Positions 34,726-50,698 of a stretch of DNA of 64,000 bases are shown in pieces. The stretch's first letter is position 1, and each line of letters opens with the position of its first letter. The DNA is taken from positions 1 to 64,000 of IMG/VR virus record IMGVR_UViG_3300005528_000048. The stretch is one strand, 5' to 3'. The position numbers and the translations under genes are program-made. Source of the stretch: a virus. The notes under the pieces were generated by a model, which made no database searches, was not told the DNA's origin, and saw only the letters and a program-made list of their open reading frames with translations.

Positions 34726-35133
34726 TTAACAGTTTAACCAATCTCTTTCATTGATTGGATAGAGAACAGTTAGTTCTTCGCCTTCGTTAATTTCTCTAGC
34801 GGAGAAATAAATATCTGCATTTTCGTCATGAATTAAGTTTGGCGTTTCAGAATGATTGACGTAAAAACTCAAATCAATTTGATCCAAAAAACCATCAATA
34901 AAGAACCCGTCTTTGTCTGAGTGACAGATATATCGGATGTAATTTTTGATAGCGTCCGATACGTCAGATATTTCACTCCAGCAAATAAAATGGTTTTCTG
35001 CTCTTGGAGCGAAGATTGGATAGTCTTTGGGAATCTTAGAGAGCGCAAAAACTCCAACTCCTGCGCCATTAATCTTTGAAACGCCAAGCTTACATTGTGG
35101 CAGTTTGAGGTTCTGTATAATGGATTGGCGCAT
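34726..35133 (-). CDS. SET-domain protein, putative lysine methyltransferase (135 aa)
   Basis: Motifs of the SET fold appear in order: 'GAGVGVFA' (SAM-binding GxGxxA-type, residues ~24-31), 'FYVNHSETPNL' (matches the NHSxxPN core, ~90-100) and 'INEGEELTVLYP' (GEELTxxY, with the catalytic Tyr, ~117-128). It is compact, a nearly bare SET core, and lacks pre-SET and post-SET cysteine clusters. SET enzymes transfer methyl groups from SAM to protein lysines. It overlaps the upstream gene by 44 bp and ends against the fibre gene; substrate unknown, possibly a virion or host protein. Confidence 0.75.
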   Translation of the reverse strand: MRQSIIQNLKLPQCKLGVSKINGAGVGVFALSKIPKDYPIFAPRAENHFICWSEISDVSDAIKNYIRYICHSDKDGFFIDGFLDQIDLSFYVNHSETPNLIHDENADIYFSAREINEGEELTVLYPINERDWLNC

Positions 35134-35749
35134 CGGAAAATTCAGTCATGTAGCTATAATCTGTAAACTTGTTTCTCTTGTTTTCAACTGAATAAATATT
35201 TAAGTCAATTTTATATCCTGGATTTTTATCTATTGGGTTGTAAACCCATGCGTCATCGTGCCAGATGATGCGGTTGTTAGGATAAGCGTAAAAGTTGCCA
35301 TTATCCATTTTAAATAAGTGGGCGCATTTATGCTCTGGAGTTTCGCTGAAATTAGTGTCTAAAACGCTTTTATTTTCCCAACTCCAATCAAGAGTGAACA
35401 AGTATTCACCGCACTCTTTTGTGTTTGATGGAGTGATTAATTTGGCGCGTAAACCACGCAGTCTTTGACGCACCTGAACGTCAATATAGGGAGAGAAGCA
35501 GTCCCAATACATTGCTTGTTCAAGCGGCACAGGATCGCATTGTTTCCAGCAAAATGCTGTGATTGGTCGCCGTGTCCAATTCACGCCATTATTTAAATAT
35601 GCCTCAAAAAGCGGCACACGCTTCTCAATAGAAGCAACAGAATGAACATCTGCTGGTGTATATTCGCCGTGACCTTTTTCGTGGTTAAATAAATATTCGT
35701 TTCGGATTAAACAAGTAATCGTTGGAATATTATGATTGAGATAGGCCAT
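35090..35749 (-). CDS. Hypothetical protein beside tail fibre (219 aa)
   Basis: Trp-, His- and Tyr-rich soluble protein; segments such as 'NRIIWHDDAWVYNP' and 'WTRRPITAFCWKQCD' are aromatic-rich. No signal peptide or membrane segment and no catalytic motif that I can name. It starts 2 nt after the fibre gene stop and overlaps the SET gene, so the three form one operon; a role in fibre folding or modification is possible. Unknown family. Confidence 0.6.
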   Translation of the reverse strand: MAYLNHNIPTITCLIRNEYLFNHEKGHGEYTPADVHSVASIEKRVPLFEAYLNNGVNWTRRPITAFCWKQCDPVPLEQAMYWDCFSPYIDVQVRQRLRGLRAKLITPSNTKECGEYLFTLDWSWENKSVLDTNFSETPEHKCAHLFKMDNGNFYAYPNNRIIWHDDAWVYNPIDKNPGYKIDLNIYSVENKRNKFTDYSYMTEFSDAPIHYTEPQTATM

Positions 35750-38998: not shown

Positions 38999-41386
38999 TT
39001 ATTCAAACATTACCGTAGAGTCAATAAATTTAGCATGAATTTCTGATTTAGAATCCTTTAGCATAAACTTAGCCAAGGGAATTTCAAAATACTGGCGATA
39101 GACTTTTTGAATTGAGCGAGCATTGTTGCCATTTTCCTCGATTTTCTTTAACAAGAAATCTTTGGTTTCTTCTGAAATCTCAATAGTTTTATTATTTTGC
39201 TTGAGCATTTCATTTGTTTTCTCGATCATGCGGTCAAAGATTTTGCAGAATTCGTTTTTAGAGATTTTGTTAAATACAATTACATCATCTAGTCGAGCCA
39301 AGAATTCTGGCCTAAAGAAGTTCTCAATTGATTTTTTATATTTCGAATCTTGACTGTCTTCTGCTGGAAGGAAACCCATTGATGGCTTGGCAACTTGTTC
39401 ATGTCCTAGATTGCTGGTGAGAATGATGATAGAATTAGAGAAGTCTATTTTTCTACCCAAATTATCAGTCAAATAGCCATCATCCATGATTTGCAAGAAC
39501 AAATTATTGATGTCTCTATGGGCCTTTTCAATTTCATCAAAAAGAATCACACTATTAGGGCGATTGCGCACGAATTCAGTTAAAACGCCGCCTTCCTCGC
39601 ATTTTATATAACCAATTGCCGAACCAATTAATTTATTGATTGAACTAGACTCTTGGTATTCACTCATGTCAAGCTTTAGCAAGGCTTTTTCATTGCCAAA
39701 GAACTTTTCAGCCAAGAGTTTAGCTGTCCAAGTTTTGCCCACGCCAGTAGGCCCAACAAATAAAAACTTACCCATTGGTTTGTTTTTGGGCTTTAGTCCA
39801 GCCTTTGAGCAGATAAGAATATTGGCAATTTTCTCCAAACCTTCATCTTGACCATAAACATCGTTTTTCAAAATCTCTAAAATGTTTTCGTTTTGTAGAT
39901 TATTCGCGAAAATAATTTTATTTTTACTGATACTTAGCTTTTCAGCAAAAACATCAATCAGATTCTCTGTTGAGATTGGTACAAACTTGCGTCCTTTTTC
40001 GGCCCATTCTACAAGCTTTAGCCCAAATTCTTCAATCATCTTCTCGCACTCGCCAGAATGCTTTGGGTCATTAATCTTTTCAAGGTTCTTTTTAATTTTA
40101 GTTTCAAGATTTTTAATCTTCTTTGGAATGACAAAATTGGATATTTTAACTTTAGAACCAAGTAAATCAATAATGTCAAAAGCCTTGTCGGGAAATTTGC
40201 GGTATGGGATATACTTTTCGCACAAGAAGATTATATCTTCAATGATTTGTTCGGAGTAAGTGACTCCATGAAACTGCTCAAATTGAGCTTTAGAAGACAT
40301 TAATATCTTTTTTGTTTGCTCGTTATTTGGCTCTTCGATTGTAATAGCTTCAAATCTGCGTTTTAAAGCACCATCCTTCTCAAACAGCTTCTTGTATTCA
40401 GCATGGGTTGTAGCGCCAATACAAGTGATTTCTCCGCGAGCTAGGGCAGGTTTCAGCATGTTTGCCACATCAAGAGCGCCTTCGCCGTTTCCAGCGCCAA
40501 TCATGGTGTGAATCTCATCAATAAAAACAATATAGTTATTATTCTTTTTGAGTTCATCGAGCAAGCCTTGGAATCGCTGTTCAAATTGACCGCGATATTT
40601 TGTACCTGCAATCATGGATGCCATGTTCAAAGACACAACAATTTTATTTTTAAGCAATGCGGTTGTTTCGTCCACCATGATTTTATAAGCTAGTCCTTCA
40701 ACAATAGCTGTTTTGCCAACGCCAGGATCTCCAATCAAAATAATGTTGTTCTTTGTTTTACGAAGAATAGTTTCAGCAAGAGTGGCGATTTCAGTTTCTC
40801 TCCCATATACATTGTTCAACTTATTCTGCAAAGCAAGTTCAGTTAGGTTGGTGCAATACTTTTTAATGTAGGTTTGCTTTTCCACATTCTCTTCTTCAAT
40901 CTCTGGAACTTTTTCTGGTTTCTTTTTAACAGAATTTGGGTCCAAATGGCTAATAAGAAGTTCAGCAAAGTCATCTATGGGAAACTTGCTATGCTCTAGA
41001 AATCCCCTCACAGTTGGGGATGTCATAATTAAAGCATATAAAACATGCTCAACGCCAACATATTCTTGATTTAATTGGGCGCTTGTCTCGTTCGCAAATT
41101 TAAGAATTTCCTCAATTTCGTTGTGCCAAGCCTTTTGATTAGTTTTCTTTTTAAAAAAAGCTGGATGATTCTCTTCAACAAACGGAATAATTTTATCAGC
41201 CAAATTGTACTGATTTACCATGAATGGTCTGAAAACCGTGCGAAACAATGGATAATCAAGCTCAACAATCGTTTTAAACACATGGGCGCAGTTAATTCTT
41301 TCATGCCCCAAAGACCTTGCTAGTTCCTGAGCTTGTTCCAGAGCTTTTTTGACTCGCGGAGTCAAGTTGAAGTTTTTCATCCTCAT
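38999..41386 (-). CDS. ClpA/ClpC-like AAA+ unfoldase (795 aa)
   Basis: Two AAA+ modules. An N-domain (1-~150, 'LTPRVKKALEQAQELARSLG') is followed by D1 with Walker A GDPGVGKT (~218) and Walker B 'IVFIDEIHTM', a short middle domain (~430-490, too short for ClpB), and D2 with Walker A GPTGVGKT (~545) and 'VILFDEIEKAH'. After 'ILTSNLGHEQVAKPS' comes MGF (~668), at the place of the IGF/IGL loop that docks ClpP. So it resembles ClpA/ClpC rather than the disaggregase ClpB and may engage the host ClpP; no clpP is seen here. ATG at 41386 or 41380; the latter gives the usual spacing to the AGTGTAA element. Confidence 0.9.
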   Translation of the reverse strand: MRMKNFNLTPRVKKALEQAQELARSLGHERINCAHVFKTIVELDYPLFRTVFRPFMVNQYNLADKIIPFVEENHPAFFKKKTNQKAWHNEIEEILKFANETSAQLNQEYVGVEHVLYALIMTSPTVRGFLEHSKFPIDDFAELLISHLDPNSVKKKPEKVPEIEEENVEKQTYIKKYCTNLTELALQNKLNNVYGRETEIATLAETILRKTKNNIILIGDPGVGKTAIVEGLAYKIMVDETTALLKNKIVVSLNMASMIAGTKYRGQFEQRFQGLLDELKKNNNYIVFIDEIHTMIGAGNGEGALDVANMLKPALARGEITCIGATTHAEYKKLFEKDGALKRRFEAITIEEPNNEQTKKILMSSKAQFEQFHGVTYSEQIIEDIIFLCEKYIPYRKFPDKAFDIIDLLGSKVKISNFVIPKKIKNLETKIKKNLEKINDPKHSGECEKMIEEFGLKLVEWAEKGRKFVPISTENLIDVFAEKLSISKNKIIFANNLQNENILEILKNDVYGQDEGLEKIANILICSKAGLKPKNKPMGKFLFVGPTGVGKTWTAKLLAEKFFGNEKALLKLDMSEYQESSSINKLIGSAIGYIKCEEGGVLTEFVRNRPNSVILFDEIEKAHRDINNLFLQIMDDGYLTDNLGRKIDFSNSIIILTSNLGHEQVAKPSMGFLPAEDSQDSKYKKSIENFFRPEFLARLDDVIVFNKISKNEFCKIFDRMIEKTNEMLKQNNKTIEISEETKDFLLKKIEENGNNARSIQKVYRQYFEIPLAKFMLKDSKSEIHAKFIDSTVMFE

Positions 41387-41391
41387 GTTTT

Positions 41392-41399
41392 TACACTAT
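41392..41399 (-). promoter_or_regulatory. AGTGTAA element before the Clp gene
   Basis: On the minus strand TAGTGTAAAAACATG. It lies 5 nt before the ATG at 41386 and 11 nt before the in-frame ATG at 41380; other copies favour the second. It overlaps the stop of the polymerase gene. Confidence 0.5.
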
Positions 41400-43951
41400 T
41401 TGATTTCTGATAGTTTCATATAAATTTTCTCGTCCAAAATGGCAAGTTTATCTACGAATAAAATGTCTTCGCCCTTCTTGCCAGTAACAATTATGATGTT
41501 TTCTTCTTTGGGTAATTTATTGCCATTTTCGAGATATTCGGTGAGCCGCGCTTTTTGATTAGTATCGAGCAGCATTGCTTTGATTTTGCCGCTTTCGTCA
41601 GCGATTTCGAGTTTTGCGTATTTGTTTCCATTTGCACTTTTTTTGCGATAGCAGTCTTTGACAACGCCAACCATACGCACATTCTCGTTCATGTCAAGCG
41701 AGTTGAATGTCATGCAGTTAACATATCTCTCTGAACTTTGCTCTGAAAAAATATTTTTAATAATTTGTGAATAAGAATATCCAAGCAGTTTGGTTTCAAA
41801 ATACCAGTTTGCGAATTTGGGATATTTTGAGTTCTTATCGTAGATTTCTCGATACCCTGCATATTTTTGTTTGAATGTTTGGAATCTCTTGTCACTCATG
41901 ATGACTTTGTTATCGTCACCAACTTGTTTGTTTTTAACGCAATCGTGAACGGTTTTTAGAATATCGTAGTTGTATTTTTCGCCCAAAGAGCAGAAAAGTC
42001 GCTTTTCCCTATCTGTGAGAATATTGAACGATTGAGCTTCAAGAACCATGCGGCAACGATCTTCTGAAAAGCTATTTAAGGCTCCAGCTTGAATAAGGGC
42101 GGAAAGAGCACCAATATTCAATCCCACTTGCTTTGCCACTGTAAAAACATCATATTTGTTCTTGAGTTCAGCATTGCAAAACTCCATCAAAGCTGACATG
42201 GTATTGTCAGAAATGCCCTTGATACTGTTCAGCCCGTATCGAATATCTTTTTTCTCAATAGTGAAATCAGCCTTGGATTTTGTAAGGTCTGGAGCTAGAA
42301 GCTTCATATCAAAATATGGAAGCTCTTGAGTGATCTTGTTGATTTCTGCATAGGAGTCTGGCTCAAACTGAGTCATTTTCAGCAAGCTCAAAAAGAAATT
42401 TTGAGGATGTTTGAATTTGAGATATAGTGTCCAAGCAGCAAGAATAGCATAAGAGATGGAGTGAGATTTATTAAACGAATAGTTTGCCGAGTCTTCTGCG
42501 ACCTTCCATAACACTTCTCCAATAACAGGGTCGAGATTGTTTTGCTGAATTTTCTCCTTGATCTTGTCTTGCCAAGAAGACATTTGATCAACCTTCTTCT
42601 TACCCACGATTCTTCTAAGCTGTTCAGATTCATCCAAGGTGAAACCAACCTTTACAGCCATTCGCATCAACTGTTCTTGATACAATGGAATACCGCCAGT
42701 GTATTGCAGAATATCATCAAAGAAAGGATGAACGCTTTGGAAGTCGCCAGTATTAACATATTGCGCATATCGGTCTAAGAAGTCCAAGGCTCCAGGGCGT
42801 GCAATAGCCACCACAGCAGAAAGCTCTTCAAGGCTCTTTGGTCGAACCTTTTGTGCAACTTTAAAGTTTGTATCAGCTTCGATTTGAAAGAGTCCCTGCG
42901 GAGTTTGCAGGTTTTGAAGATGATCATAGATTTCCCTGCTTTGCAAATCCAAGGTTGTAATGTCAAAACCAATCTGCTTACAAACATCATGAATCACTGA
43001 AAGTGTTCGCAAGCCAAGAATATCAAACTTCACACACAAACTTGCAACATCATTCATGTCATAACCAGAAACCAAGTCGCCATCGCCAGTTGTTTGCAGT
43101 GGCATAATCTCTTCCAAGTTGTAATGGCTGATTGCAATGCCAGATGGGTGAACTCCTGTATTCTTAATCAAGCCTTCCAGCTTCAAAGCAATTTCAAAGA
43201 TTTTTTTATTATCAGATGCCCACTCTTTGAACTTATCACTTTCTTCACAAGCGTTCTTGAGAGAAGCTACTTTGCCAAACTTCTTTGGAATCAAGTCGCT
43301 GATTTCATTAACTGCTGATTCTGGCAGTTCTCCAACAAGCTTTCCACATTCTTTCACGCAAAGCTTGCTGCTCAAAGTATTGAGCGTAAGAATTTTACAT
43401 GTTTTGCCAGAGTATTTCTCTTCAATAAATTTGATCACTTCTTGGCGGCGTTCATAAGCAATGTCATTGTCAACGTCTGCCAAGAGAGAACCGTCCAAAT
43501 AAGTTTCTCCGTTAACCACAATCTTCTTGGCGCGGCTCTTGGAAACAAATCGCTCAAAATACAACTCATACTGAATCGGGTCAACCTTCGTGACTCCAAT
43601 CAAATATAACACTAGAGAACCTGCTGCTGAACCACGGCCAGGACCAGTTGGAATTCCATTCTCATGACAAAATTTCAAGATGTCCCAATTCAACAAAACA
43701 TAGTCAATAAACCCAAGCTCTTCAAACAAACTCAGTTCTGTTTTGACGCGCTCATAATACACTTGTGAGTTGTCTTTTTTGTCAATACCTTTTTCCAAGA
43801 CTCCTTTATGACAAAGCTTGCGAAGAAATTGATAATTTGATGATGTGTTTGGAATACCCAAAGCATCATAATACTTTTGCTCGATAATGATTTGAGGAAG
43901 CTTAACTCCAGGGAGTGTTGGTTGCTCGTATTTTTGAAAGTTTTCGATCAT
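41396..43951 (-). CDS. DNA polymerase III alpha (DnaE-type), polymerase part without PHP (851 aa)
   Basis: Family C replicative polymerase. 'TGPGRGSAAGSLVLYLIGVT' (~100-118) is the DnaE signature, and 'ADVDNDI' (~155) carries two catalytic Asp; the third is probably in the later 'VSGYDM' region. 'LGLRTLSVI' and 'KKVDQMSSW' are further family blocks. The C-terminal ~150 residues contain an OB-like strand set. The PHP domain that begins all bacterial DnaE proteins is absent: the frame starts with the linker that normally follows PHP. The missing domain is encoded at 45366-46112. The start has no obvious RBS. Confidence 0.92.
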   Translation of the reverse strand: MIENFQKYEQPTLPGVKLPQIIIEQKYYDALGIPNTSSNYQFLRKLCHKGVLEKGIDKKDNSQVYYERVKTELSLFEELGFIDYVLLNWDILKFCHENGIPTGPGRGSAAGSLVLYLIGVTKVDPIQYELYFERFVSKSRAKKIVVNGETYLDGSLLADVDNDIAYERRQEVIKFIEEKYSGKTCKILTLNTLSSKLCVKECGKLVGELPESAVNEISDLIPKKFGKVASLKNACEESDKFKEWASDNKKIFEIALKLEGLIKNTGVHPSGIAISHYNLEEIMPLQTTGDGDLVSGYDMNDVASLCVKFDILGLRTLSVIHDVCKQIGFDITTLDLQSREIYDHLQNLQTPQGLFQIEADTNFKVAQKVRPKSLEELSAVVAIARPGALDFLDRYAQYVNTGDFQSVHPFFDDILQYTGGIPLYQEQLMRMAVKVGFTLDESEQLRRIVGKKKVDQMSSWQDKIKEKIQQNNLDPVIGEVLWKVAEDSANYSFNKSHSISYAILAAWTLYLKFKHPQNFFLSLLKMTQFEPDSYAEINKITQELPYFDMKLLAPDLTKSKADFTIEKKDIRYGLNSIKGISDNTMSALMEFCNAELKNKYDVFTVAKQVGLNIGALSALIQAGALNSFSEDRCRMVLEAQSFNILTDREKRLFCSLGEKYNYDILKTVHDCVKNKQVGDDNKVIMSDKRFQTFKQKYAGYREIYDKNSKYPKFANWYFETKLLGYSYSQIIKNIFSEQSSERYVNCMTFNSLDMNENVRMVGVVKDCYRKKSANGNKYAKLEIADESGKIKAMLLDTNQKARLTEYLENGNKLPKEENIIIVTGKKGEDILFVDKLAILDEKIYMKLSEIK

Positions 43952-43962
43952 TTTAGGTTTAA

Positions 43963-43970
43963 AAGTGTAA
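43963..43970 (+). promoter_or_regulatory. AGTGTAA element before the homing endonuclease gene
   Basis: AAGTGTAAATA on the plus strand, 10 nt before the ATG at 43981. Shows that even the opposite-strand insert carries this element. Confidence 0.55.
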
Positions 43971-43980
43971 ATACAATGCT

Positions 43981-44766
43981 ATGTATGATATAAATGAAAA
44001 AATGGCTTATTTCTTTGGTTTCTTTTGGGGTGATGGAGGCATGAAATCTAATAATAAACCTACGATTCCAAAAATATGCATTGTAAAGGAAGATGCAGAA
44101 AATTTATACGAGACGTTTAAAGAGTGCTTTGAATTTTCTTATTCAGAATACGCCCAGCCTAATAGAAAACTTCGTTCAATTTTTTATTTTAAAAATAAGG
44201 GTTTAAAAACGTTTCTTTTAGAAATGGATGGTTTGAATAAATCTTATCTAGCTCCAACAAAAATTTTAAAAGCCATACCCATTCATTTGCATAAATATTT
44301 TTGGCGCGGATACGTTGATGCTGATGGTTGTTTTTATAAGAATAAGGATAAAAAGGGCGGCAAGTTTTCTTTTTCATCATCTATAAACCAAGATTGGTGT
44401 GAAGTCAAAAACTTATTTATTTCTTTGGAAATTGACAATTTTTCAATTTTTAAAAAGCAAACAGATAATGGCAATAGTTCCACTTTCGAAGTAAAATATG
44501 GCCCTGATATTAAAAAATTTGGCAATTTTATTTATGGAAATGAATTTGATGGAATAGGTTTGAAAAGAAAATTTGATAAGTTTATAGAAATTTCTAACTC
44601 TTTAGAAAAACTAACTTCAAATAAAAAGGGTATTTCTTTCCATAAAGGAATTAAAAAATGGAGAGCTTATGTAAAGCGTCAATTTTTAGGATGGTGGAAT
44701 ACAGAAGAAGAGGCTTATTCAGCTAGAATTAAATTTCTATCTCAAAAATCTGCTTCTGAAAAATAG
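43981..44766 (+). CDS. LAGLIDADG homing endonuclease with AP2-like tail (261 aa)
   Basis: Two LAGLIDADG helices: 'YFFGFFWGDGG' (~10-20) and 'FWRGYVDADGCF' (~108-119), the Asp of each being the metal ligand. The C-terminal ~45 residues ('KGISFHKGIKKWRAYV', 'GWWNTEEEAYSARIKF') look like an AP2/ERF DNA-binding module, a common add-on of phage homing enzymes. It is free-standing and the only plus-strand gene between 34.7 and 59.7 kb, sitting between the exonuclease and polymerase genes. Its 3' end overlaps the exonuclease stop by 38 bp. An upstream ATG at 43976 is out of frame and stops at once. Confidence 0.9.
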   Translation: MYDINEKMAYFFGFFWGDGGMKSNNKPTIPKICIVKEDAENLYETFKECFEFSYSEYAQPNRKLRSIFYFKNKGLKTFLLEMDGLNKSYLAPTKILKAIPIHLHKYFWRGYVDADGCFYKNKDKKGGKFSFSSSINQDWCEVKNLFISLEIDNFSIFKKQTDNGNSSTFEVKYGPDIKKFGNFIYGNEFDGIGLKRKFDKFIEISNSLEKLTSNKKGISFHKGIKKWRAYVKRQFLGWWNTEEEAYSARIKFLSQKSASEK

Positions 44767-45376
44767 CGAATGTCATCTCAATGTCCACTAATGCGTTATG
44801 AAGCTTGCTTGGATCATGGTCAATGTTGTAATGCTTGAGCAAGTGAGCTTGACTTGTTTTGATTCCTTTTTCACGATGGTTTAGCCAACGATACTGCCAG
44901 CAAATCAAGTCATCAGGGTCAACAGACTTGCACTCTTTAGCGATTGCCATTGCCATTGCTTTTGTATCAAGCACGCGATTCACATAATTGAAGTTGGAAT
45001 CTAAACCCATTGCTCTCTGCCATGAATTGAGCATATAAACATCAAAGCCAAGAATATTTTGGCCAATGATTTTTGTTTTACTATCTTCAAGATGATTATC
45101 TAAAAGTGGACAGAACTCATCCCAAACTTCTCTAGGGCTTTTGGCGAGAGAACGATATTTGCCATAGTCAAATCCAGTAATCTTAGCGGCACCTTCGCTC
45201 ATTTTCAAATCTGGCCAATAAATGTATCTCTCTTGACGAGAAACGATTTTTTTGCCAACAGCTTCAATCCACGCAATCTGCCAAGGTCTTGAATGTAAAA
45301 GATTCAATCCTTCCGTCTCAGTATCCAAGACGATATATTTTTGATTGAAATTAAATCTCAGTAAATTATCTTTCAT
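44729..45376 (-). CDS. DnaQ-like 3'-5' exonuclease (215 aa)
   Basis: DEDDh exonuclease, the proofreading partner of family C polymerases. Exo I is 'VLDTETEGL', Exo II 'IIGQNILGFDVYML' and Exo III 'HNALVDIEMTF' (HxAxxD). The frame is open to 45412, but I place the start at the ATG at 45376, which has GGGAGG about 10 nt upstream and overlaps the PHP gene stop by 11 bp. It lies between PHP and polymerase genes, in the order that PolC keeps within one chain. Length is near that of E. coli epsilon's catalytic part, without a long C-terminal tail. Confidence 0.9.
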   Translation of the reverse strand: MKDNLLRFNFNQKYIVLDTETEGLNLLHSRPWQIAWIEAVGKKIVSRQERYIYWPDLKMSEGAAKITGFDYGKYRSLAKSPREVWDEFCPLLDNHLEDSKTKIIGQNILGFDVYMLNSWQRAMGLDSNFNYVNRVLDTKAMAMAIAKECKSVDPDDLICWQYRWLNHREKGIKTSQAHLLKHYNIDHDPSKLHNALVDIEMTFAIFQKQIFEIEI

Positions 45377-46112
45377 TTTTAAAAGCCTCCCAAGAGAATG
45401 AATCGCTGCCACAGTGTTCTAAGTTTGGGCTAGAGAGCGATTGCTCTTTGCCAAAAGAACGATTGCATAAACACTTGTATGTTTGCCAAGCTTCAAAGTC
45501 TTTACGATTTTTGTAATAGATGGATTTTGTTTGCTGAATTTCTTCACCCTGCGCCGAAGCCCATTTTTCCACCTTGAGTTTTAAGATGTGATCAAAAGGC
45601 AAACTATTGTTTTCGACAAAGTAGGTTGCTTTTGTAAAGTTAAAGTTTGGCAAGCACTGTTTACCTCTAAAATTATTATTATAGATGAAAGAGTCGTAAA
45701 ATGGAATGCACAGCATCAAATCGTTCGACCAATTGTTTTGTAAAAATACAGAGTCAACGAAGCCACCATTCTTGTTTGCTAGAGAAAAAATACGAATAAG
45801 GTTTTTGACACCATTATCATTTTTAGCGAATAAGACGATCTTGTGCTCGGATGATTTTTTGTCCTCTTCTGAGACTGAATTACAACATGAAATTCTCAAA
45901 CCAAAGATTAGTTGAATATCGTGCTCTTTACATTTCTGATAAGCGTCCAAAAAACCAATCATTGAATCCTCAACCAAGAAGACTGATTTTAGTTTATTTT
46001 CTTGAGCAATCGAAATGATGCTGTCAGAACCGCCTTCTTTGGTTTCTTTTGGATGATCTAGTGTGAGTATTGATTTGCCAATACTATATGTGCTCTTGAA
46101 GAGAGGAATCAT
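45366..46112 (-). CDS. Stand-alone PHP domain of DNA polymerase III alpha (248 aa)
   Basis: Follows the DnaE PHP layout: 'PLFKSTYSIGKSIL' at the place of the family's xHSxYSxxDG start, 'LIFGLRI' as the GxE-type strand, 'HKIVLFAKNDNGVKNLIRIF' as the helix pair after it, and 'SIYYKNRKDFEAWQTYKCL' at the place of the VHYLxPEDxEAHxxLxC block. The metal-binding His and Asp of 'HSD' are Lys and Thr, so it is probably not a nuclease. It would complete the 851-residue polymerase in trans. The start codon lies inside an 8-bp stem palindrome. Confidence 0.8.
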   Translation of the reverse strand: MIPLFKSTYSIGKSILTLDHPKETKEGGSDSIISIAQENKLKSVFLVEDSMIGFLDAYQKCKEHDIQLIFGLRISCCNSVSEEDKKSSEHKIVLFAKNDNGVKNLIRIFSLANKNGGFVDSVFLQNNWSNDLMLCIPFYDSFIYNNNFRGKQCLPNFNFTKATYFVENNSLPFDHILKLKVEKWASAQGEEIQQTKSIYYKNRKDFEAWQTYKCLCNRSFGKEQSLSSPNLEHCGSDSFSWEAFKNER

Positions 46113-46135: not shown

Positions 46136-47173
46136 CTACCTGTCAATTCCTTTATTGAAAGCAGGACAACCAGCATAGTGCATTATCTGGTATAAAAACT
46201 TGTCTTCTGGATATTTTTTAAGGTAATCATCAAACTCATCTAAGAAGCAAGACGTAATCATTGTGCCTTTCATGTCGCTGATTTTGTAATAATAAAAATC
46301 AAACTTGTATGGACAATGATATTTGGGATTGCCGTCTTTTTTTAATTCACCCTTTTTAGAAGCGAAACCACATTGAAGCGGCCCACTGAATGAGTTATCT
46401 TTTGGATAGTCTTGACGCGCTGCCAAATTTGAAAAGGCAGTTTGAATATTAAAATTATCCAAGTATTTTTGGATTTCGGTGAGTTCAGATTGAAACCCAT
46501 CTAGCTCTTCTTCTGTTAAAGCTGGCATTCTTACAACACCTTTTTCTGTTGGCAAAAACTTTAAAAACAAGAATTCAGAGCGGCGATTTTTATAATCTGG
46601 AAACTGCTTTTTAACAGCTAGTGAATACATCAAGTCTTGCAAGTTGTTTTCGAGGTCTTTGCCCTTGAAAACTTCTTTGCTGCTTTTGAAGTCGCGAATA
46701 ATAGCCAAGCCCTGCTTCTTGTATAAGAAAAGCTTGTCAATGAAGCCTTTGATTTTATAATCAAACTTGCCTTCTTTAACATCAATTTCAAAGTCTTGTT
46801 CGCTTAATGCTTCGGATGGTTTGCCACATTCTGTTCCAAAAAAGTCATATTGTAAACCTGCAAGCGTCATGTCGCAGATTTGTTTAATGTTTTCTTCGTC
46901 ATTAATGCCTTCTTTTTTGGCATGTTTGCGAATCAATCTTTCAATAGCTTTACTAGCAAAAACATTTCTCTTTTTAATAATAATGGAAAAATGCTTCTTG
47001 TGGCGATTTTCGCCCAAGCATTCGAAAACCAAATGGCATACAGAGCCGCGCTTTGCTCCACTATTGCTTCGATCAGGAAGTTTCAAGTGATATGAACACC
47101 AATACTTCCAACTGCACGATTGAGCAGTTTTGATGCGACTTGCCGATAGTGATGTTCGATTTTTAGATTCCAA
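46136..47173 (-). CDS. RecB/Cas4-like PD-(D/E)XK nuclease (345 aa)
   Basis: The N-terminus 'SLSASRIKTAQSCSWKYWCS' matches the family's LSxSRIxxFxxCPxKYxY opening. 'GFIDKLFLYKKQGLAIIRDF' gives the catalytic Asp and D-x-K (DFKSS), and 'NLQDLMYSLAVKK' the QxxxY motif. Cys in 'SCSWKYWC' plus 'LQCGF' and 'YHCPYKF' near the end could hold an iron-sulphur cluster as in Cas4/AddB. It would process DNA ends in recombination-dependent replication. The start appears to be TTG at 47173; no ATG precedes the conserved opening. Confidence 0.82.
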   Translation of the reverse strand: MESKNRTSLSASRIKTAQSCSWKYWCSYHLKLPDRSNSGAKRGSVCHLVFECLGENRHKKHFSIIIKKRNVFASKAIERLIRKHAKKEGINDEENIKQICDMTLAGLQYDFFGTECGKPSEALSEQDFEIDVKEGKFDYKIKGFIDKLFLYKKQGLAIIRDFKSSKEVFKGKDLENNLQDLMYSLAVKKQFPDYKNRRSEFLFLKFLPTEKGVVRMPALTEEELDGFQSELTEIQKYLDNFNIQTAFSNLAARQDYPKDNSFSGPLQCGFASKKGELKKDGNPKYHCPYKFDFYYYKISDMKGTMITSCFLDEFDDYLKKYPEDKFLYQIMHYAGCPAFNKGIDR

Positions 47174-47417: not shown

Positions 47418-48464
47418 TTAAATTCCAAAGTTTTCTAGTTTTTTAAAAAATTTCTGTAGTTTTTTATCTTGGAAAGCATTACGATTAGCAGAGCAGTAAT
47501 CTTTGTAATCATTTAATTTAGCTTCTTGAGAAGCGCTTGGTTGTTCATACCAATCTTTAAATGGCATTTCTTTCTGCCTCATCTCGCCAAAATCATTTGC
47601 CCAAGGTAGTTGCACTGATAGTTGCTCAAAGTCAAAAAATTGACTGAGTTTCATGTAGTTTTTCATTGCAGCAATCTTGCCATGATTCTTTTGCTTCTCA
47701 TTGTCGTTATTTGTGGCGATAATGATCTTGCGAAGGTCTTTGGAGCAAAGATAGTTCAGCAGTGCTGGAGAGCAGTCCAATCCAAAAGTAACGAGGTTAT
47801 GAGCGTAGCCTTCTTCTGTCAAGGCCAAGCTATCTCCAATGCTTTCTACTAAGATGACTTCCTTTTTCTCATCAATAAGAGAATCAACTGTTTGCTCTCT
47901 TGGAACAAATGCTGGATAAACCCATCGAGTTTTTGTGCCAACATGCTTCCACTTTGGAGCTTCGTTATTATCGTTGATTTTTCTGCCGCTAAAACCAAAA
48001 ATCTCACCATCAGAGTTATAAACTGGAAAAACAATTCTTTGATACATTTGGCCATTACCAGCCAAACCGCACTGATAGAGTTTTTGCGTTTCTTCACTGA
48101 TTCCACGCTTCTTATAAAAGGAAAAGTTTGGGAACAGCCTGTTTAAGCATTCTTTGGGGTAAATTTTATCCATTTCTATTTTTTCTTTCGCGATATAGTG
48201 GGCCTGAATCTCTTGATTAGTTGAGACATATTCTTTGATGATTTTGGGGTCTTTTGTTTGTAGCGTTAGTTCAACCAGCTTAACAAGCGGCATGGAAGAA
48301 TGACCCTGCACATAGTCTTGCCATACTCCACTATTCTTATACACTTTAATCGCTGTGGGATTATCGCCGCCACGATACAAAGCTTTGGTTCTCCAATGAT
48401 TGCCAAAATCCTTTAGAGTATAGCCAAGCTTTTCGAGCGAGTTTTTTATTTCATCAGAGTTCAT
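47418..48464 (-). CDS. DnaG-type primase without zinc cysteines (348 aa)
   Basis: Makes RNA primers for lagging-strand synthesis. I start at the ATG at 48464 (MNSDEIKNSLEKLG), overlapping the helicase stop by 11 bp. The N-terminus keeps the pattern of the CHC2 zinc domain ('YRGGDNPTAIKVYKNSGVWQ') but has none of its Cys. 'YQCGLAGNGQMYQRIVFPVY' and 'IFGFSGRKI' belong to the RNA polymerase core. The TOPRIM fold follows with 'VILVESIGDSLAL' (catalytic Glu, ~203) and 'IIIATNNDN' (~248), where the first Asp of the usual DxD is Asn. Activity therefore needs testing. Confidence 0.82.
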   Translation of the reverse strand: MNSDEIKNSLEKLGYTLKDFGNHWRTKALYRGGDNPTAIKVYKNSGVWQDYVQGHSSMPLVKLVELTLQTKDPKIIKEYVSTNQEIQAHYIAKEKIEMDKIYPKECLNRLFPNFSFYKKRGISEETQKLYQCGLAGNGQMYQRIVFPVYNSDGEIFGFSGRKINDNNEAPKWKHVGTKTRWVYPAFVPREQTVDSLIDEKKEVILVESIGDSLALTEEGYAHNLVTFGLDCSPALLNYLCSKDLRKIIIATNNDNEKQKNHGKIAAMKNYMKLSQFFDFEQLSVQLPWANDFGEMRQKEMPFKDWYEQPSASQEAKLNDYKDYCSANRNAFQDKKLQKFFKKLENFGI

Positions 48465-49971
48465 CAAAGTCGGGAGCGGTGTTTCTGCCATTCTCTTCTG
48501 CGCCTTCTCCAATATCATTGAATTCAACAACATCGCGAAGATCACCTCTTTCAGTGATGCAGAAGTTTTTAAATTCCAAATTAATAAAGTTCTTGCGAAG
48601 AGTGTCTCCAACGCGCACTGGTTCAACTGCACCAGCAATATCTTTGCCCAAGTGTCGAGCTTTCACGTTAATCAATTTATGAGTGCCAAATCTAACGCCT
48701 TCATTTAGAACTTCATCCGTTGTCTTATTTCGCAAGATGAACATGTGAGAGCAGAATTGAGTGATTCGGTCAGATAAAGAAACAATGCTTTCATCGTCAA
48801 TGACATTTTGTGAATTGCGATTATTGGTAATGCCAGAGCGATTGGATTGAACAGAAGTAATCATGGGAATTATGGGCAATCCATCATGCAAGATTTCTTT
48901 CTGCACGCAGCGCTTAAATTTATCAACCATCTCTCCAACCATTTGCCACTCTGTTTTGTTTGCGCCACCATTATCAGATGTTGTTTTGATGTAGTCGAAG
49001 CTAAAAATCATTCGATTGCCACGCCCAACCTTGGAGTAGTAAAAACGCTTTAGCGTGTTGATCATGGAATCAACATCCAATCCCCCAACATTATAATAAT
49101 AAAATTGCATCTTCTTGACCTTTGCCCAAACAGACCGAACCTTATCAACTGTTTCTTTGCCTGCTCGCAGCCATTGACCACTTTCAATCAAATGCATTGG
49201 AACTCCACTAAGAGCAGAACACTGGCGCATAATGAGTTCTTCCTTGCTCATTTCTCCATTATCAAAATGAAGAACAGGAACATTATATTTCAAACTCACC
49301 TTGGTTGAGTAATCCATAGTAAACTGAGTCTTGCCGACACCAGATCGAGCAACAATGACGGTGATATTTCCTGGTCTAAGCAATGAACCATAGATGCTAT
49401 TAATTTTTTCATGTGGTCCCATCATGCCGAACTCGCTAACAGGATTTGCGCCACGATCTTCAATCATTACCTCCATTTCATCATAGATGTTTTCTGGAGA
49501 ATCGTTACCAACTTCATACTGATTGATGCGGCTGTTGTATTCTTTATCAGCTACAGAAATGATTTCTGAATAGGAGCTTTCTGCTGGCAAGCTTTTCATC
49601 TTCTTCGCAATGTTTTGCGAAGACTCGTAGATTTCTCGGCGGATAGTGTACTTCTTGAGTTCTTTGGCTGTTTTAATGAGACTGCCATCAGCAACCTTTC
49701 TCATGCCAAGACTCTTCACATATTCTGCCACATTCACTACATCATCGAATGTGATACCAAGATTCTGAACTCGCTGTGCGATGATTACATCGTCAATTTC
49801 TTCATGCGCTTCTAGTGCCTGACGAACAATTGTGAAGATCGTTTTATTTAAACTGTTGTCTTCACTATAGAAATCTTTTTCATTTATGAATGCAGAGATT
49901 TCAAAATAGTTCTCTGGCTTTTTAATGAGAGCCGCCAGCAATTGTTTTTCAAGTTCATAAGAGTATATCAT
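48454..49971 (-). CDS. DnaB-like replicative helicase (505 aa)
   Basis: Hexameric 5'-3' helicase. N-terminal helical domain 'LEKQLLAALIKKPENYFEIS', then a RecA-like motor with Walker A 'ARSGVGKTQF' (~207), the family block 'VLHFDNGEMSKEELIMRQCS' and later 'MITSVQSNRSG' with the sensor/arginine-finger region. The frame is open to 49998 from a TTG, but the ATG at 49971 ('MIYSYELEKQLL') is the natural DnaB-like start; AAGAG precedes it. Lies with primase in one operon. Confidence 0.9.
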   Translation of the reverse strand: MIYSYELEKQLLAALIKKPENYFEISAFINEKDFYSEDNSLNKTIFTIVRQALEAHEEIDDVIIAQRVQNLGITFDDVVNVAEYVKSLGMRKVADGSLIKTAKELKKYTIRREIYESSQNIAKKMKSLPAESSYSEIISVADKEYNSRINQYEVGNDSPENIYDEMEVMIEDRGANPVSEFGMMGPHEKINSIYGSLLRPGNITVIVARSGVGKTQFTMDYSTKVSLKYNVPVLHFDNGEMSKEELIMRQCSALSGVPMHLIESGQWLRAGKETVDKVRSVWAKVKKMQFYYYNVGGLDVDSMINTLKRFYYSKVGRGNRMIFSFDYIKTTSDNGGANKTEWQMVGEMVDKFKRCVQKEILHDGLPIIPMITSVQSNRSGITNNRNSQNVIDDESIVSLSDRITQFCSHMFILRNKTTDEVLNEGVRFGTHKLINVKARHLGKDIAGAVEPVRVGDTLRKNFINLEFKNFCITERGDLRDVVEFNDIGEGAEENGRNTAPDFDEL

Positions 49972-49994
49972 GCTACTCTTACGATACTCAGCAA

Positions 49995-50282
49995 TCAATC
50001 TTCGTCAACATCATCTTCATCATTTCTTCCCATTTCTCCAAGATTGTATGCGGTTTCAGCATCGTCTGAATTTTGAAGATATTTTTCCAAAGCTTTTCTC
50101 ATGCCAAATTCAACCACTTGAGAATCATATTTACAGTAGATGACTGGAGTTCCATCTTCTGAAACATAAGCTAATAGCACACCCTTATACTTGTCCGCAT
50201 TGCCGCTTAACTCATAAATTTGTTCGATAAAGTTTGAAGGCATTTCAAACTGAGGAATTTCCTTGATTTTATTCTTCGGCAT
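49995..50282 (-). CDS. Hypothetical acidic protein (95 aa)
   Basis: 'YKGVLLAYVSEDGTPVIYCK' forms a beta hairpin, then helices and an Asp/Glu tail (NDEDDVDED). It sits between helicase and a nuclease gene. An acidic tail at the end could contact a basic partner or SSB-like site. TGTAATAT 5 nt before the ATG resembles the AGTGTAA element. No family recognised. Confidence 0.5.
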   Translation of the reverse strand: MPKNKIKEIPQFEMPSNFIEQIYELSGNADKYKGVLLAYVSEDGTPVIYCKYDSQVVEFGMRKALEKYLQNSDDAETAYNLGEMGRNDEDDVDED

Positions 50283-50287
50283 ACCTT

Positions 50288-50296
50288 ATATTACAG
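50288..50296 (-). promoter_or_regulatory. Variant TGTAATAT element before the 95-aa gene
   Basis: On the minus strand CTGTAATATAAGGT then ATG at 50282, 5 nt after the hexamer. It differs from the consensus by C instead of G before TGTAA and has AAGG as a possible RBS. Confidence 0.35.
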
Positions 50297-50698
50297 ATAA
50301 ATTTCGTACGATTCAAAAAAATCTTTATTCAATTCCGAAACGCTATAAATTTCCACAAGCTTAATGCCGTTTATTTCGCAAAACTCAAGCTTTTTATTGT
50401 CTCTTTTTAATTGCTGCAAGAATTTATTTCTGCTGCCATGAAAGAAAGGAACAAATTTTGTGTGTTGCTGTCCTTGGACCTCGATTGCTATTTTTTTGTT
50501 GGCATTGTAAAAATCAAAAGTCATTCTTGTGTCAATGACTCTCAGTTCTTCAAATACAATGTCTTCACTCCAGTAAAGCTTCAAGAATCTTTTAACTTCG
50601 TCTTGAAATTTGCTACGAGTTTTTTTGCGCCAATTGATTAAATATTTTGACGCATTCTTGAGATATTTTTCTTTTCCGTATAGAGTTTTAAACCTCAT
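50291..50698 (-). CDS. Small PD-(D/E)XK (VSR/DUF559-like) nuclease (135 aa)
   Basis: 'DTRMTFDFYNANKKIAIEVQ' is the core: Asp in FDF, then E-x-Q in place of E-x-K, followed by GQQH. Similar proteins with 'FDFY...IAIEVDGxxH' belong to the VSR/restriction-like fold. The rest ('QQLKRDNKKLEFCEINGIKL') is the helix-strand pair typical of that group. It may be a nicking or junction endonuclease in recombination. Overlaps the recombinase gene by 11 bp. Confidence 0.7.
   Translation of the reverse strand: MRFKTLYGKEKYLKNASKYLINWRKKTRSKFQDEVKRFLKLYWSEDIVFEELRVIDTRMTFDFYNANKKIAIEVQGQQHTKFVPFFHGSRNKFLQQLKRDNKKLEFCEINGIKLVEIYSVSELNKDFFESYEIYL

Follow-up and report, generated by a model that had tools for sequence, protein, structure and literature searches.

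The 64,000-nucleotide stretch analysed here (the window) comprises positions 1 to 64,000 of the IMG/VR virus record IMGVR_UViG_3300005528_000048, which is 91,613 bases (91.6 kb) long. Three adjacent genes on its minus strand encode a PHP domain, a DEDDh exonuclease and a DnaE-type polymerase devoid of PHP. Genes were assigned by profile searches with Pfam, PHROGs and NCBIfam (table 1). The initial annotation had described this locus as a DNA polymerase III (Pol III) cut into three genes that retain the order of PolC, the replicase of Gram-positive bacteria. A full DnaE or PolC elsewhere in the genome, which that annotation had named as counting against it, was looked for: the record holds a single PF07733 match, and neither a second family C polymerase nor PolA or PolB was found in it.

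The cut follows the boundary between the PHP and polymerase domains, as the annotation had claimed. PHROG 405 is a phage DnaE family with a profile of 1190 positions; the 248-residue PHP protein matches positions 63–292 and the 851-residue polymerase positions 330–1078. One profile extends over two abutting chains, which therefore share a single ancestral domain order. The cut was mapped by profile–profile alignment (hhalign) to a fused DnaE set led by Escherichia coli K-12 DnaE. PHP residues 6–234 align contiguously to DnaE 12–234 (98.6%), and the polymerase aligns from its residue 38 to DnaE 287 onward. By eye, the PHP chain stops near DnaE 248 and the polymerase begins near DnaE 262, with about 14 residues of one helix missing from both chains. 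The polymerase starts just ahead of a linker, FLPQFP in E. coli and GVKLP here, in which G15, L18 and P19 never vary among 128 sequences of the family, the set used for the conservation counts below unless another is given. Profile searches of the PHP gene against PHP families returned PF02811 in addition to the N-terminal part of PHROG 405. The AlphaFold2 model of its product (pLDDT 91, pTM 0.89) was compared with known structures by Foldseek. Every one of the 18 best PDB matches is a Pol III alpha structure, the alpha–epsilon chimeras 4gx8 and 4gx9 among them. The PHP fold of Pol III alpha is thus confirmed for the modelled protein.

Loss of the PHP metal ligands, first noticed as a change from HSD to KST, proved wider than that. 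All nine ligand positions (HHDHEH(C/H)DH) are replaced and the family residue is kept at none of them, although the assignment of the position beside D49 varies with alignment details. Four of the nine are now conserved Lys or Arg: the equivalents of E. coli H12, D19, D69 and H83 are K6 (118/128), K/R13 (128/128), R/K73 (127/128) and K91 (128/128). E48, D49 and Y139 are invariant or nearly so. Judged by these replacements, the site is predicted to be dead as a metallo-enzyme and not drifting; since the new residues are conserved, another conserved role is indicated. A salt-bridge core, an anion pocket and a DNA pocket are the options for the rebuilt site.

Between PHP and polymerase lies a DnaQ-type exonuclease, as originally proposed, with matches to RNase_T and to PHROG 192, annotated 'DNA polymerase exonuclease subunit'. 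The DEDDh residues D18, E20, D112, H193 and D198 are conserved in 127–128 of the 128 sequences. Its start is most likely the ATG at 45376, which overlaps the end of the PHP gene by 11 nt, rather than the GTG at 45412. In all 128 sequences, 17 residues follow the last catalytic Asp; about 76 do so in E. coli epsilon. A candidate clamp-binding motif in the C-terminus (Q-I/L-F/W-D/E-I-E) was rejected, being non-canonical and with a Q that is not conserved. Profiles of the PolC exonuclease are matched by most of its homologues as well, and this subunit may be of PolC origin.

The polymerase itself is of the DnaE type. Pfam matches cover DNA_pol3_alpha (1e-61), the fingers (2e-31) and HHH_6 (1e-15), with a weak OB match, and the catalytic residues D159, D161 and D310 are present in 128/128. 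The chain lacks both PHP and the C-terminal tau-binding region. Its AlphaFold2 model (pLDDT 90, pTM 0.86) matches DnaE at about 5e-39 with 23–28% identity, as against 2e-16 and 15% for PolC (Foldseek). These values, together with NCBIfam matches to DnaE-type models only, rule out a PolC origin of the polymerase, and the PolC order of the three genes is therefore superficial. The earlier analogy fails on a further point. PHP, exonuclease and polymerase follow one another in the same linear order in both systems, but PolC is one chain with the exonuclease inside PHP (PMC3919608), whereas here the exonuclease gene comes after the whole PHP domain.

Related phages were surveyed for fused and split forms by protein-guided scans of IMG/VR and GTDB genomes, which confirmed at least 554 PHP relatives out of 599 pattern matches. 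Among the loci fetched, all 157 distinct complete ones, viral or from metagenome-assembled genomes (MAGs), have three separate open reading frames (ORFs) in the same order on one strand; 16 further loci are incomplete, most of them visibly cut by contig ends. Of 66 bacterial DnaE controls passed through the same pipeline, 62 have an ORF that extends 255 residues or more upstream of its polymerase match, and the named phages Sundance, MTATph1 and BillNye have full-length DnaE ORFs. Scans from the most divergent members returned the same arrangement, with exceptions in one subclade, the most divergent. There the three genes are dispersed in locus L253, and in L358 (905–9535) PHP sits a long way from the polymerase, in a new place upstream of genes for helicase, primase and a PD-(D/E)XK protein. 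The exonuclease was not found in the 31-kb L358 record, so that the trio can come apart, and neither PHP nor exonuclease was seen in L355, a 16.7-kb fragment. In a maximum-likelihood tree, all 22 split representatives form one clade, and the branch separating them from all fused enzymes has 100% support and a length of 0.93. A single ancient cut is the simplest reading. No close relative was found among the named phages of the searched collection, the best identities being near 33%. MAG labels of family contigs range over Flavobacteriaceae, Saprospiraceae, Halobacteriovorax, Verrucomicrobiales, Woesebacteria and Lokiarchaeota; these contigs are probably mis-binned, and no host is therefore assigned.

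The family C (DnaE-type) replicase of this large lineage of uncultured phages probably consists of three subunits, each translated separately, with PHP docked in trans and carrying the exonuclease. That the three products form one replicase is the best inference. The following mechanism is proposed. (i) The polymerase chain, with palm, fingers, HhH and OB, would carry out synthesis. (ii) The free, catalytically dead PHP would dock in the position that the covalently attached domain has in DnaE and stabilize the polymerase. (iii) PHP would also serve as the platform for the separate DEDDh exonuclease, which would proofread. (iv) The sliding clamp is probably supplied by the host, since searches of the record detected neither clamp nor clamp-loader families. 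In favour of this reading are the division of one family profile over two chains, the order and strand kept in 157/157 loci, the overlaps between the genes, the Pol III alpha fold of PHP and a record in which no other DNA polymerase was found. Work on E. coli provides the precedents. Its PHP domain, itself ligand-poor with five positions replaced, lends stability to Pol III, which does not reach full activity without it, and loss of PHP ligands is associated with a separate epsilon exonuclease (PMC3666897). Epsilon sits on this domain with its tail wrapped round it, and isolated PHP 1–270 is soluble and binds epsilon (PMC3642679). Because the E. coli domain both stabilizes Pol III and binds epsilon, a trans-acting structural and docking subunit is the most likely role of PHP here.

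Several observations weigh against the three-subunit proposal. The exonuclease is without the long C-terminal tail that E. coli epsilon wraps round PHP. Coevolution between PHP and polymerase is not above that of control pairs (58 sequences), and, to judge from its pLDDT, the polymerase chain would fold well by itself. With its end near DnaE 248, the phage PHP is slightly shorter than the soluble E. coli fragment; one cut at 255 is insoluble (PMC3642679). That no clamp or clamp-loader family was detected belongs here as well. In favour of the proposal, distances of PHP, exonuclease and polymerase are correlated (r 0.81–0.90) with concordant clusters, although shared ancestry alone predicts this; the concordance gives no sign of subunit exchange between lineages. 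A more specific model is put forward only tentatively. PHP may have become an obligate free subunit in which the old metal site has been rebuilt as a conserved basic pocket (K6, K/R13, R/K73 and K91, beside E48–D49 and Y139). The ligand of this pocket would be the tail-less exonuclease, primer DNA or the N-terminus of the polymerase. Access to proofreading would then be set by a detachable adaptor and not by an epsilon tail.

Other explanations of the locus have to be considered. The starting point was a single metagenomic contig, in which an error of sequencing or assembly might split one gene; the arrangement of 157 distinct loci, which come from many different metagenomes and MAGs and vary in overlaps, frames and inserted genes, refutes this and leaves it a negligible probability. 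That frameshifting, readthrough or protein splicing nonetheless makes one functional chain of the three parts is barely credible. The frame of the exonuclease relative to PHP is distributed 64/51/13 over the three registers, and all three genes are never in one frame (n = 128). Exonuclease and polymerase genes share a start/stop overlap of 4 nt in 74/128 loci and PHP and exonuclease genes overlap in most, which suggests translational coupling. Overlaps range from −43 to positive values among loci, and some gaps hold unrelated genes that on inspection resemble IMP dehydrogenase, SET-domain and cupin proteins. A programmed frameshift or readthrough fusion is ruled out by the varying frames and overlaps; a T TTT AAA heptamer occurs at the end of the PHP gene, and a −1 slip there misses the exonuclease frame. 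At NYSFNK|SHS, the polymerase halves of some members do seem to be rejoined by split inteins, which speaks for a single chain. No intein extension was found on PHP or on the polymerase N-terminus, however, which excludes such rejoining at the PHP cut, and in L358 the PHP gene lies far from the polymerase. The one-chain explanation is thus largely refuted. From the varying frames, the lack of an intein at the PHP cut and the separation of the genes in the divergent subclade, it follows that PHP is a free-standing gene.

A free-standing gene might still be a decaying relic of a fused DnaE, with a polymerase that works without PHP. Ligand loss and the predicted independent fold of the polymerase agree with this. 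The PHP protein is nevertheless full length, with 19 invariant columns over 101 sequences (38–95% identity to the window protein), and is present in every complete locus; it is therefore under selection, and a relic is very improbable. The conserved new set of residues in the dead site, and the retention of PHP even where it has moved from the polymerase (L358), would also suit a protein with its own role, such as DNA or anion binding or host interaction, and with no stable part in the polymerase. This is unlikely, given that adjacency and order with exonuclease and polymerase are nearly invariant elsewhere, that the fold is specifically of the polymerase-PHP type and that known ligand-poor PHP domains are structural (PMC3666897). 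A PHP subunit acting with the polymerase in trans is preferred over each of these alternatives.

A further cut is found inside the polymerase of some members, at NYSFNK|SHS (L238, 7372–10576; L239, 8347–12222; L240; L256; and, by the same pattern, L185 and L360). Both halves have intein-like ends, with a starting Cys and an ending ...TSN|S. The ORF between them is nuclease-like or contains NUMOD3 and resembles a homing endonuclease. From these sequence features, the cut is apparently a split intein with a free-standing homing endonuclease in a phage DnaE. The polymerase halves are presumably rejoined by splicing, with PHP staying separate. Another observation concerns the gap between PHP and exonuclease in L055, L057, L111, L159 and L234, which holds ORFs that look like IMP dehydrogenase/GMP reductase.

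Among known systems, bacterial DnaE1 of the E. coli type is closest in domain content, with homologous PHP, palm, fingers, (HhH)2 and OB in the same order, a separate DEDDh proofreader and, partly in E. coli, lost PHP ligands. The phage system differs in its separate PHP gene, its nine replaced ligand positions as opposed to five in E. coli (PMC3666897), the absence of the C-terminal domain and its long divergent branch. Bacteroidota DnaE1 with an N-terminal exonuclease (L341, L342) likewise ties a moderately similar exonuclease to a DnaE-type enzyme, but on one chain and with the exonuclease ahead of PHP (PMC3919608). Split phage Pol III genes are already known, and those found are cut inside the polymerase or lack PHP. 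Group 2.2 jumbo phages also build Pol III alpha from separately encoded proteins (Iyer et al. 2021, PMC7824862); their two-protein minimal Pol III, unlike the present one, is cut inside the catalytic module, lacks PHP and other Pol III domains and stands beside a family B polymerase. Cellulophaga phage phiST, Bacillus phage KLEB27-3 and Rossellomorea phage phiT1 similarly carry DnaE on more than one ORF. In these, ORF sizes and profile matches place the cut inside the polymerase, the first chain being PHP plus part of the polymerase, and no exonuclease gene is annotated at the cut, in contrast to the locus described here.

PHP counts as a universal domain in surveys of bacterial C-family polymerases (PMC3919608, PMC12926913), and it is described as part of a single polypeptide (PMC3666897). 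The literature searched, which consisted of open-licence papers, yielded no account of a free-standing PHP subunit of Pol III. A free PHP protein makes the role of PHP directly testable, by comparing the polymerase with and without it and with no engineered cut, and the lineage may offer a natural route to what this part does. It would also indicate that a bacterial-type replicase can evolve to a multi-subunit enzyme, and provide modular parts for reconstitution.

The homing endonuclease that the initial annotation placed in the second gap is indeed present, as a LAGLIDADG gene, but forms no part of the arrangement. The gap between exonuclease and polymerase is one nucleotide in the 82%-identical relative L004, which lacks this gene, and is occupied by a different endonuclease in L003. 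Because relatives have none or another one there, the gene is an incidental insertion. Surveyed relatives that include this end of the locus have the Clp-like AAA+ ATPase gene directly after the polymerase gene.

Table 1. Genes of the replication locus, with positions in the window.
Gene product	Position	Strand	Evidence
Clp-like AAA+ ATPase	38999–41386	−	PF07724 2e-60, PHROG 4871 1e-216
DnaE-type polymerase, 851 aa: palm, fingers, (HhH)2, OB	41396–43951	−	PF07733 1e-61, PF17657 2e-31, PF14579 1e-15
LAGLIDADG homing endonuclease, at exonuclease/polymerase junction	43981–44766	+	PF14528 5e-7, PHROG 4645 5e-16
Exonuclease, 215 aa, DnaQ superfamily, DEDDh intact	44729–45376	−	PF00929 4e-10, PHROG 192 2e-22
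Free-standing Pol III alpha PHP domain, 248 aa, predicted catalytically dead	45366–46112	−	PF02811 7e-10, PHROG 405 N-terminal part
PD-(D/E)XK exonuclease, conserved upstream neighbour	46136–47173	−	PF12705 3e-18, synteny
DnaG-like primase (Toprim)	47418–48638	−	PF08275 4.5e-8, PHROG 47 6e-25
DnaB-like replicative helicase	48454–49998	−	PF03796 2e-14, PHROG 19 2e-38

Three other minus-strand genes of the window were recorded. An HNH/homing-endonuclease-like protein (50291–50698; PHROG 9084, 2.6e-16) adjoins a recombinase gene. The product of 35090–35749 belongs to PHROG 3704, annotated ferredoxin (1e-52), and has no Pfam match. A phage SET-domain protein is encoded at 34726–35133 (PF00856, 1.4e-9), and SET-like ORFs of similar look occur in the PHP/exonuclease gap of other members, for example L053 and L146.

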